Shown here: positions 37,547-39,765 of the stretch, in pieces
How the letters are laid out: each line of letters begins with the position of its first letter
Numbering within the stretch: position 1 is the first letter of the stretch
Assembly: GCA_001464545.1 (NCBI GenBank)
Contig: LNFC01000017.1
Location: forward strand, 62,001-126,000
Direction of reading: 5' to 3'
DNA length: 64,000 nt
Source: Acidobacteria bacterium Ga0077551
Lineage (GTDB): Bacteria; Pseudomonadota; Alphaproteobacteria; Caulobacterales; Hyphomonadaceae
Notes under the pieces: model-generated
Database searches by the model: none
Told to the model about the DNA's origin: nothing
Seen by the model: the letters and a program-made list of their open reading frames with translations, nothing else
Translations under genes and position numbers: made by a program

Positions 37547-37623
37547 GTTACGCAATGTCCACAATAACGTGTCTTGCGCCGCCTTGTGCGGGGCGTAACC
37601 GTGGCAGCCGGGAGGCGTGTTGC

Positions 37624-37845
37624 ATGAGCGTGGCATTGGCAGAGGCGGTCTGGCTGGGGCTTGGGGCTTATCTGGGTTTCGGGCTGGTGATCGGCCTCTG
37701 CGTGGCGGCGTTCGGGCTGAAGCGGCTGACGGCGGCGGAGGTGCCGGTGCGGGTGCGGCTGCTGATCCTGCCGGGCCTCGCGGCGCTGTGGCCGGTGGTG
37801 CTGCTGCGCCTCGCAGGTGTGCGGGCGCCGGAGGACCGGGCGTGA
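37624..37845 (+). CDS. small two-helix membrane protein of the redox operon
   Basis: 73 residues. Two hydrophobic helices (about 7-32 and 44-64) are joined by a short basic loop (G-L-K-R-L, V-R-V-R). No motif is recognised. The stop overlaps the GTG start of the next small gene (GTGA), and that gene overlaps the ferric-reductase/Rieske gene, so all four are translationally coupled. It may be a subunit stabilising the membrane complex. This is inference from gene order and size. Confidence 0.75.
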   Translation: MSVALAEAVWLGLGAYLGFGLVIGLCVAAFGLKRLTAAEVPVRVRLLILPGLAALWPVVLLRLAGVRAPEDRA

Positions 37846-37976
37846 CGCGGGGCCAAAGGCGGGTGCATGCGCTGGTCTGGCCCGTGCTGGCGCTGCTGCT
37901 GGCAGGGGTGATCGGTGCGGGCTTGTGGGAGCGCGCGCGGGTGGCCGAGGCTGCGTCCGCAGTGGAGGCCGGCTGA
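37842..37976 (+). CDS. 44-residue single-helix membrane protein of the redox operon
   Basis: Start GTG 37842 overlaps the preceding stop (GTGA), and its own stop overlaps the next ATG (TGATG at 37974-37978). The product is M-T-R-G-Q-R-R, one helix (about 9-30) and a short tail rich in Ala and Glu. Basic N-terminus suggests N-in orientation. The double overlap is the main reason to accept so short a gene. Small single-helix subunits are common in respiratory membrane complexes. Confidence 0.65.
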   Translation: MTRGQRRVHALVWPVLALLLAGVIGAGLWERARVAEAASAVEAG

Positions 37977-39028
37977 TGGCGGCGGGCTTTTCCCTGGTCG
38001 GCTGGAACCGGTTCAAACGGGCGTATGACGGCGTGCTGCTGACGGGGATTGCCGTGTTCTTCGCGGCGCATCTGGGGGCGGGTTTCCTGCTGGCGCCGGC
38101 GGGGCAGCTTCCGAGTGAAATCCAGCTGCTGATCCGCGCGAGCGGGGCGGCGGCCTTCAGCCTGCTGACGATCATCCTCTGCCTCGGGCCGCTGGCGCGG
38201 CTGAGCCCGCGCGCGTTACCGCTGGTCTACAACCGGCGGCACATGGGGGTCGCGTGCTTCGGACTCGCGCTGATCCATGGCGCGCTGGTGGTGCTCTGGT
38301 ATCACGGGTTTTCCGAGGTCAATGCGTTTATCTCGCTGCTGGTATCGAACCCGCGCTACACTTCTCTCGGCGGCTTTCCATTCGAGAGCCTGGGTCTGGC
38401 CGCGCTGCTGATCCTGTTCGTGATGGCGGCGACGAGCCATGATTTCTGGAACGCGGTGCTGGGCCCGCGGTTGTGGAAGTGGGTCCACATGAGCGTCTAT
38501 GCCGCCTACGGACTGATCATCGCGCATGTGATGCTCGGCGCCGTGCAGGGCGAGAAAGGCCTCCTGCAGGCGGCGCTGGTTGGCGGCTCGGCGCTGCTGG
38601 TGGCGGGCTTGCACATTTTCGTCGGGCGGAAGGAATCCGCGCGGGATTCGGCGCTGGCGGCCGAGGCTGAAGGCTGGCTGGATGCCGGGTTGGCGGCGGC
38701 GATTCCGGATGGGCGGGCGGTGATCCTTGTGCCGCCGGAGGGCGAGCGCATAGCGGTGTTCCGGGAGGGCGCGAAGATTTACGCGGTAGCGAATGCCTGC
38801 CGGCACCAGGGCGGGCCGCTGGGCGAGGGCCGCATTCTGGATGGGTGTATCGTGTGTCCCTGGCATGGCTATCAGTACCGGCCCGAGGATGGCTGCTCGC
38901 CGCCGCCGTATACCGAGAAGCTGCCGACATACCGGACACGGATCATCGGAGGCCGTGTCTTCGTGCACCGGCTGCCGCAGCCGCCGGGTACGGCGCTGCC
39001 GCCGTCGGTGATCGGGGAGGCTGGCTGA
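37976..39028 (+). CDS. ferric-reductase-type transmembrane domain fused to a Rieske [2Fe-2S] domain
   Basis: 350 residues. The N-terminal 215 residues hold about six helices of the ferric reductase/MsrQ fold with R-R-H-M-G, L-I-H-G (His101), A-A-T-S-H-D-F-W, L-W-K-W-V-H (His171) and I-I-A-H-V (His184), positions that ligate b hemes in that fold. The C-terminal 100 residues are a complete Rieske domain: C275-R-H277 and C294-P-W-H297. Heme-b and a Rieske cluster in one chain suggests electron transfer between quinol or a cytosolic donor and an external partner. No FAD/NADPH domain is present. Overlaps of one base at both ends tie it to its operon. Confidence 0.85.
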   Translation: MAAGFSLVGWNRFKRAYDGVLLTGIAVFFAAHLGAGFLLAPAGQLPSEIQLLIRASGAAAFSLLTIILCLGPLARLSPRALPLVYNRRHMGVACFGLALIHGALVVLWYHGFSEVNAFISLLVSNPRYTSLGGFPFESLGLAALLILFVMAATSHDFWNAVLGPRLWKWVHMSVYAAYGLIIAHVMLGAVQGEKGLLQAALVGGSALLVAGLHIFVGRKESARDSALAAEAEGWLDAGLAAAIPDGRAVILVPPEGERIAVFREGAKIYAVANACRHQGGPLGEGRILDGCIVCPWHGYQYRPEDGCSPPPYTEKLPTYRTRIIGGRVFVHRLPQPPGTALPPSVIGEAG

Positions 39029-39765
39029 TGGCGGAGGATCCATTCTTCGTCGGCTGGAACGCCGAGATGCCGAAACCGACGCGGCGGCAGATGCTTGTTG
39101 CGGGCGCCGGGCTGGTGGCGGGCGCTGGCGCGCTGGGGCTCGGGCTTGGGGCCGCGGCGCCGTCGCCGGGGCCGGGCGCGTGGGACCAGGGCAAGAAGGT
39201 TGCGGTGACGGGCACAATCTATCCGGAGCCCTATACTCATCTGCTTACGGAGGATCTGGGATACGGCCTCAGGCCGGTGTTCCTCGTCGGCGCGGGCAAG
39301 GACCGGATCAATGTGCGTCCGGCGCTGACGTTTACCGGTGCAGCGGTCACCGGCACGCTGATCGAGCGGGGCGAGCATGCGATGATGGCGGTGGACGGGA
39401 TATATCCCGATCCCGCGCCGGGACGTGTGCGGGCGGGGCCGGAGGTGGACCTTGGCGAGGCGGTGCTGACAGGTGAGATCCTCGATGCAAAATGCTGGTT
39501 CGGCGCGATGCGGCCCGGGCATGGAAAGACGCACAAGGCCTGCGCGGCGCTGTGTGCGCGGGGCGGGTTGCCGCTCGCGTTTGCCGAGACGGGGCGGTGC
39601 GCGGAGGGCAAGGCGGCGCTGTTGTTCCTGAACGCGCGGGGCAAGGCTTTCGGGCCGGAGATCATTCCGCTCGTCGCCGATCCGGTGATGATCCGGGGGC
39701 GGATCGTTGAGGTGGCGGGGCTGCGGCAGGTGCGCGCGAAGTTCGAGGATGTTGTGAGGCTTTAG
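39028..39765 (+). CDS. Tat-type exported or anchored protein with a Cys/His-rich motif
   Basis: 245 residues. T-R-R-Q-M-L-V (18-24) before a hydrophobic stretch (to about 43) looks like a twin-arginine signal or N-terminal anchor. The soluble part has a striking cluster: D-A-K-C156-W, then H165-G-K-T-H169-K-A-C172-A-A-L-C176-A-R-G-G and C191. These could hold a metal, heme or disulfides. The rest is beta-rich. I do not recognise a named family. Being last in the operon of the ferric-reductase/Rieske protein, it is the natural redox partner, as MsrP is for MsrQ, but it is not a molybdoenzyme. Confidence 0.8.
   Translation: MAEDPFFVGWNAEMPKPTRRQMLVAGAGLVAGAGALGLGLGAAAPSPGPGAWDQGKKVAVTGTIYPEPYTHLLTEDLGYGLRPVFLVGAGKDRINVRPALTFTGAAVTGTLIERGEHAMMAVDGIYPDPAPGRVRAGPEVDLGEAVLTGEILDAKCWFGAMRPGHGKTHKACAALCARGGLPLAFAETGRCAEGKAALLFLNARGKAFGPEIIPLVADPVMIRGRIVEVAGLRQVRAKFEDVVRL

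Follow-up and report, generated by a model that had tools for sequence, protein, structure and literature searches.

A conserved four-gene set around a ferric-reductase-type/Rieske fusion protein may encode a membrane electron-transfer complex

The stretch of DNA analyzed here, a window of 64,000 nucleotides from contig LNFC01000017.1 of Acidobacteria bacterium Ga0077551 (a member of the Alphaproteobacteria), contains on its plus strand, at positions 37624-39765, four consecutive open reading frames (ORFs) that we name A, B, C and D. Protein C combines a ferric-reductase-type membrane domain with a Rieske domain. We propose, with a probability of roughly 0.55, that the products of the four genes form a single redox complex in the membrane, through which electrons flow outward, from a cytosolic donor to the Rieske centre, through two haems b to D, and on to an acceptor outside. 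What carries this proposal is the gene set itself, its co-occurrence across genomes, the conserved ligand residues and the charge pattern of C, all of which can be read from the sequences. An earlier note on this DNA, made from its letters alone, had described a redox operon of four genes overlapping stop to start. The overlaps are borne out by the ORFs, which succeed one another with overlaps of 4, 1 and 1 nt, and the evidence given below supports a redox operon that is conserved and includes a membrane domain of the two-haem type as well as a Rieske domain. The features of the region, all on the plus strand, are the following.

37610-37615, plus strand: sequence GGGAGG resembling a ribosome-binding site, 8 nt upstream of A, read by eye.
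37624-37845, plus strand: gene A, 73 aa, two hydrophobic segments.
37842-37976, plus strand: gene B, 44 aa, GTG start, one hydrophobic segment; 4-nt overlap with A.
37976-39028, plus strand: gene C, 350 aa, ferric-reductase-type membrane domain plus Rieske domain; 1-nt overlap with B (TGATG).
38009-38647, plus strand: membrane domain of C, residues 12-224, six helices, according to the model, VIA and the invariant histidines.
38666-38989, plus strand: Rieske domain of C, residues 231-338, with C275-x-H277 and C294-x2-H297 (PF00355, VIA).
39028-39765, plus strand: gene D, 245 aa, N-terminal helix and two domains resembling the oligonucleotide/oligosaccharide-binding (OB) fold; 1-nt overlap with C (TGATG).
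39073-39156, plus strand: N-terminal helix of D in the model, residues 16-43, adjoining a twin-arginine pair; signal or anchor.
39178-39423, plus strand: first OB-like domain of D, residues 51-132; VIA Z at most 6.8 (below 8), fold label tentative.
39442-39762, plus strand: second OB-like domain of D, residues 139-245, with a Cys/His insertion; homologous to small secreted proteins.
39472-39573, plus strand: motif of D, residues 149-182, with C156, M161, H169, C172 and C176; proposed metal site.

We searched 385 genomes of the window's class (Alphaproteobacteria, going by Hyphomonas as its closest named kin), each search scoring only the best first-pass candidates, and found C in 18 of them (E ≤1e-30). 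The A profile (E ≤0.001) matched exactly these 18 genomes and none of the other 367 (Fisher p 2.8e-31; genomes and loci are partly related, so that p-values overstate their independence). Sixteen of the 18 also have a full-length D, which the 367 others lack; 11 further genomes of the class match D in its C-terminal half only. Moreover, the distances between C proteins correlated with those between the corresponding D proteins (60 loci, r 0.777; maximum of 999 permutations 0.108) and with those between the A proteins (38 loci, r 0.465; permutation maximum 0.191). Among the window's genome and 60 relatives, D was matched (E ≤0.001) in 12 of 61. Seven of these 12, the window's included, belong to the same genus and are 80-100% identical; 37 genomes of that genus were searched, so the set is patchy. 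In each of the twelve D stretches outside the window, D is immediately preceded by C, and C by matches to A and B. C and D are also present on five Rhizobium plasmids (C being partial in one), and three annotated Rhizobium regions list, in order, proteins of 71, 53 or 54, 363 or 365, and 256 aa, the third being annotated as a “Rieske 2Fe-2S domain-containing protein” between “hypothetical proteins”.

The gene set extends well beyond the class. A scan of species genomes with C returned at least 580 similar stretches, possibly with Rieske-only matches among them, of which the best 80 were kept; a tree of C was built from 72 of these 80 loci plus the window. Judged by the titles of their records, the 72 loci belong to Pseudomonadota (41), Planctomycetota (13), Acidobacteriota (9), Cyanobacteriota (2), Bacteroidota (2), Verrucomicrobiota (2), Rhodothermota (1), Kiritimatiellota (1) and an unplaced KSB1 bin (1). 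The order A-B-C-D recurs across the eight named phyla, mostly in metagenome bins in which a contig may be misbinned; the named strains are Parvularcula maris, Labrenzia sp. OB1 and Moorena bouillonii. D follows C in 74 of the best 80 loci, counting one in which D is cut by the contig end (L107) and one in which it is split into two frames (L071). With D in these 74 loci, A in all 18 class genomes with C and full-length D in 16 of them, the possibility that C homologues generally stand alone was rejected, and C is rarely found without its partners. In a phylum-level sample, C was matched (E ≤1e-10) in 214 of 398 genomes, with a whole C in seven among the matches listed. Nearly all the others listed cover about positions 200-349, the Rieske part, and because of this partial coverage they were not counted as members of the C family.

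The two small genes are conserved as proteins as well; neither outcome named in the earlier note as refuting its reading was observed. Matches to A precede C in 111 of the 113 oriented stretches (107 of 109 distinct loci) and matches to B in 108 (104 of 109); one stretch, L046, begins within C. Residues G20, W56 and P57 of A and H9 of B are invariant in 38 aligned rows, and neither protein has a Pfam family above cut-off. Comparison of the window with five relatives gave ratios of amino-acid to silent changes per site (pN/pS) of 0.50-0.57 for A, 0.10-0.52 for B, 0.15-0.35 for C and 0.07-0.29 for D. Amino-acid changes are thus fewer than silent ones in all four genes; the modest value for A means that the gene status of A and B rests mainly on their conservation across phyla. 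In 10 of the 113 stretches, the frame of A stays open until C starts; 8 of these have the B match inside the same frame, so A and B can be a single protein. At nine loci (L066, L071, L090, L096, L100, L106, L107, L111 and L061), B is found in a frame of about 130-240 aa with a shared added C-terminal stretch.

The fusion of a membrane domain to a Rieske domain in C is confirmed by Pfam, both families scoring above cut-off: Ferric_reduct (PF01794) at residues 57-181 (45.8 bits, cut-off 28) and Rieske (PF00355) at residues 253-319 (51.6 bits, cut-off 20.3). In the structure model of C, with a predicted local distance difference test score (pLDDT) of 91, six long helices are followed by a beta domain at the C-terminus. 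The membrane part resembles STEAP2, STEAP1, STEAP4 and NOX5 (VIA Z 15.7-17.0), and the beta domain resembles dioxygenase ferredoxins, e.g., carbazole dioxygenase ferredoxin 1vck (VIA Z about 16). Residues H89 and H101 on transmembrane helix 3 (TM3), H155, and H171 and H184 on TM5 are invariant in 73 of 73 rows, as are the Rieske ligands C275, H277, C294 and H297, which lie in the motifs CRHQGG and CPWHGY. According to a 2013 survey of bacterial ferric-reductase domains, histidine pairs on TM3 and TM5 ligate the inner and outer haem, and YedZ has three of these four haem histidines (PMC3591440). In C, the pairs H89/H101 and H171/H184 are likely the ligands of two haems b.

The distribution of positive charges bears on the topology of C. 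The mean number of lysines plus arginines is 2.78 at the N-terminus, 4.33 in loop 2, 1.67 in loop 4 and 2.67 in the stretch preceding the Rieske domain, and 0.59-0.84 on the remaining loops. By this bias, the Rieske domain should be on the cytoplasmic side. The Rieske subunits of bc1 and b6f complexes have an extracytoplasmic domain with two extra disulfide cysteines. We rejected C as a protein of this type, since its CRHQGG and CPWHGY motifs lack the extra cysteines and its charge pattern puts the domain inside. FAD/NADPH domains of the NOX/FRE type were not found in C; after the membrane domain, Pfam detected Rieske families only.

Protein D is modelled (pLDDT 90) as a helix (residues 16-43) followed by two beta domains. 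Structure matches were often to OB proteins (SSB, RPA, NlpE, YgiW and PriB), whose fold is a five-stranded barrel, at E above 0.001 and VIA Z below 8; both domains are probably OB-like. Invariant in 63 rows are G62, P68, K91, G149, D153, K155, C156, G159, M161, P163, H169, C172, A173 and C176. The description of D in the earlier note as a Tat-type exported, Cys/His-rich protein needs two corrections. D is not rich in cysteine and histidine throughout but has a single Cys3-His-Met motif, of which C172-x3-C176, H169, M161 and C156 are invariant. The Tat-like twin-arginine pattern of the window's D is shared by only part of the family (23 of 63 rows) and is clade-specific, and an RR pair of any kind within the first 35 residues is present in 32 of 63; Tat export is not a trait of D proteins at large. 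No Pfam family above cut-off was found for the window's D. The 63 D proteins gave weak Pfam families only (DUF5818 in 6, best E 0.00056), a D profile had no match among PDB sequences at E ≤5, and the structure lists, in which absence was not taken as evidence, named no function. The Rhizobium plasmids carry one more annotated protein, about 70 aa long, that overlaps the end of D (L017:10756-10968, L018:10753-10962 and L019:10756-10968).

We propose that the Cys3-His-Met motif is a metal site. CuA-type copper sites combine a CxxxC motif with His and Met ligands and hold two coppers. A profile comparison (probability 98.3, E 1.9e-14) showed homology of the second domain of D to secreted proteins some 145 aa long, which retain the D, C, M, H, C and C of the motif; a profile of these relatives gave one PDB match, which we regard as chance (E 0.86). 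Of 13 stretches around these secreted relatives (L137-L149), 6 hold a SCO1/SenC-type motif and 9 the motif of a second Cys-rich secreted protein. One SCO neighbour was confirmed by Pfam; the two L137 proteins gave no Pfam family. SCO proteins deliver copper to cytochrome oxidase, which makes copper the first candidate metal for D.

The SCO-type motifs, together with the closeness of the membrane fold of C to STEAP proteins, also speak for another explanation, in which C would reduce metals or oxygen in the manner of FRE, STEAP and NOX proteins, with Cu(II), Fe(III) or O2 taking electrons from its outer haem and D serving as metal receiver or chaperone instead of an electron carrier. We consider this rather unlikely, because no copper or iron transporter was recognised among the neighbour clusters that were labelled (by eye, an antiporter-like family and an RND-type, or resistance-nodulation-division, permease recur near C), and because the invariant residues of D appear to exceed the metal ligands.

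A complex of A to D acting as electron exporter, the explanation that we favour, would work as follows. The core of C would hold two haems b in series, one between H89 and H171 on the cytoplasmic side and one between H101 and H184 on the outer side. Its Rieske [2Fe-2S] domain, C-terminal and cytoplasmic, would take the position of the FAD/NADPH module of NADPH oxidases. A, with two helices, and B, with one helix and an invariant histidine, would be standing small membrane subunits, and D would be anchored at the outer face by its N-terminal helix, with a metal bound in the second OB-like domain via the Cys3-His-Met motif. Cytosolic oxidoreductases would feed C, in some genomes with a Rieske domain of their own and by Rieske-to-Rieske transfer; electrons would then cross the membrane via the haems and exit through D to an extracytoplasmic acceptor. 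In this account the cofactors, the direction of flow, the metal of D, the donor in the window's genome and the acceptor are inferred.

Candidates for such donors are found beside C. Flanks of 3.5 kb or more on either side of C were available for 72 loci; among these, a pyruvate-oxidase-like thiamine pyrophosphate (TPP) enzyme is nearby in 22, a GltS-like flavin mononucleotide (FMN) enzyme in 19 and either in 27. When a Rieske motif in the same frame was required, these numbers were 18, 19 and 23; the TPP neighbours without such a motif are those of L017, L018 and L019 (weak matches) and L093. None of 13 unrelated alphaproteobacterial stretches of 8-12 kb, a small control, contains a TPP or FMN enzyme of this kind or a Rieske-motif frame of at least 100 aa, and the loci counted are partly related. 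Pfam confirmed an N-terminal Rieske domain on a TPP enzyme (L069:5784-7769) and on an FMN enzyme (L030:5742-7364). In four of the seven whole-C genomes among the matches listed in the phylum-level sample (G599, G624, G310 and G477), a frame of 673-680 aa with a Rieske match is found at about 1.1 kb from C; this is the length of the Rieske-TPP fusion. A third candidate donor is an FMN_red-like protein: a Rieske-FMN_red-like protein follows C at L057, L076, L123 and L126, which lack D (checked with Pfam on L057 only). At L057 (11126-12217), a Rieske domain fused to an FMN_red domain stands in the place of D after C. A search of the open-licence literature returned no paper on a Rieske-fused thiamine enzyme of the pyruvate oxidase type.

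The earlier note had left open whether electrons would come from the quinone pool or the cytosol on their way to a periplasmic acceptor. The cytoplasmic charge bias and the cytosolic Rieske-tagged neighbours, present in about a third of the loci, favour the cytosol as electron source, without settling the matter. The occurrence of three unrelated Rieske-bearing enzyme types beside a Rieske-bearing membrane protein suggests a tentative and, on present evidence, doubtful extension, in which the Rieske domain would be a common plug by which TPP, FMN glutamate-synthase-like and FMN_red enzymes dock on the Rieske domain of C. In this extended reading, electrons would exit via a copper-thiolate, CuA-like Cys3-His-Met centre on the OB-like domain of D, and the quartet would represent a new class of transmembrane electron exporter.

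The same neighbours allow the flow to be turned around, so that a quinol or an outside donor would pass electrons to D, the haems and the Rieske domain of C, and thence to cytosolic Rieske-tagged enzymes such as the GltS-like one. Ferredoxin-dependent glutamate synthases consume reductant, and the best PDB matches of the FMN neighbour are indeed glutamate synthase large chains, a ferredoxin-dependent one included. The TPP neighbour, however, is closest to acetolactate synthase, pyruvate dehydrogenase (cytochrome) and pyruvate oxidase, and the latter two are electron donors. In addition, ferric-reductase-domain proteins of known direction run outward (NOX, STEAP and MsrQ all move electrons that way), and transfer from quinol to a low-potential Rieske centre would be uphill. 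Inward flow is, in our view, distinctly unlikely.

A second type of neighbourhood was found in Acidobacteriota, Planctomycetota and Verrucomicrobiota, with genes for YHS, DoxX-like, TANGO2-like, VTT and OlsB-like proteins and a 205-aa family, the L090 copy of which has no Pfam or NCBIfam match. Clustering of the neighbours of C in 109 stretches, with cluster representatives checked by Pfam or NCBIfam, gave TANGO2-like genes at 11 loci, YHS at 8, VTT at 8, OlsB-like GNAT at 8 and patatin at 7; TANGO2-like and patatin genes are also present at L035 and L038. The set of YHS, DoxX-like, 205-aa, TANGO2-like, VTT and OlsB-like genes was observed at L060, L071, L080, L089, L090 and L093, not all genes being present everywhere. 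That TANGO2-like, YHS, DoxX-like, VTT, patatin and OlsB-like genes adjoin the quartet in several phyla would fit a maturation or lipid-linked redox factor, for haem handling or membrane-lipid chemistry and not for respiration. None of these lipid-type clusters includes the window, and we regard such a role as very unlikely. With two neighbourhood types, one of Rieske-tagged enzymes and one of lipid-type genes, neither defines the function.

Other neighbours were also observed. In Hyphomonas relatives, a patatin-like gene lies upstream of A (L024:3433-4644), its C-terminal part YHS-like by eye. An antiporter-like family is found within 8 kb of C at 11 loci, the window's among them (representative L109, -5479 to -4214 from C), and an RND-type permease within 8 kb at 6 loci (representative L028, -4863 to -1669); both names were given by eye.

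Several observations weigh against the outward-flowing complex that we favour. D is missing in one clade of C, comprising 6 of the 80 loci and 2 of the 18 class genomes, so that D is not required by every version. Its members L057, L073 (where the contig ends just after C), L076, L077, L081 and L097 form one clade on the C tree, with a support of 100 in the Shimodaira-Hasegawa-like approximate likelihood ratio test (SH-aLRT); under the mechanism given above, the outer haem would serve another acceptor there. One locus, L087, has no match to A or B, and three others (L075, L122 and L125) have none to B. The OB-like matches of D are weak (none by Foldseek at E ≤0.001, VIA Z below 8), which makes the label likely, not proven. 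No Rieske-tagged TPP or FMN enzyme is nearby in 49 of the 72 loci. Nor is there one in the window's genome (92% complete) among its four Rieske matches (one in C, one in a ring-hydroxylase-like frame and two in frames of 204 and 227 aa), and the best TPP match in that genome is without a Rieske part. These two facts also weigh against the plug idea. Where Rieske-tagged neighbours do occur, they could equally be electron acceptors, and the lipid-type genes form a second neighbourhood in other phyla.

The quartet can be compared with several known systems. MsrPQ (YedYZ) consists of a haem b membrane subunit of the ferric-reductase superfamily and an extracytoplasmic partner encoded alongside, and the layout proposed in the earlier note as MsrPQ-like is similar in this general respect. 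The likeness goes no further: the best NCBIfam match of C is MsrQ at 48.4 bits, under the cut-off of 130, so that C was rejected as an MsrQ. C has all four haem histidines, the NOX/FRE-type set, as well as a Rieske domain, and there are two extra small subunits. The non-molybdenum partner supposed in the earlier note is supported: D contains no recognised molybdenum-enzyme domain, and no molybdopterin family matched it at E ≤1 in Pfam or NCBIfam. NOX/FRE and STEAP proteins share with C the six-helix haem domain and a cytoplasmic electron-input module, and NOX/FRE also the four histidines, but C has a Rieske domain instead of the FAD/NADPH domains and the standing partners A, B and D. The dioxygenase Rieske ferredoxins (1vck) share the Rieske fold and the CxH/CxxH ligands, but they are separate, soluble proteins, whereas C joins its Rieske domain to a membrane haem domain.

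The pairing of domains seen in C has been known since 2013, when Rieske was listed among the modules fused to bacterial ferric-reductase domains as architecture M4 (PMC3591440). That listing is a figure-legend entry, and the parts of the survey consulted give no operon, partner or function for it. The quartet belongs with the ferric-reductase-domain electron-transfer systems. In the open-licence literature, neither the operon nor any of A, B and D was found to be described; subscription papers lay mostly outside this search.

Few bacterial transmembrane haem routes of electron transfer have a known input and output; according to the same survey, of 1,755 bacterial homologues only YedZ had, as far as its authors knew, been characterised (PMC3591440). 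The quartet has a Rieske domain in the usual place of flavin input, two subunits of 40-80 residues and a putative metal-site protein that belongs to no Pfam family. The exact co-occurrence of its genes makes the complex directly testable.

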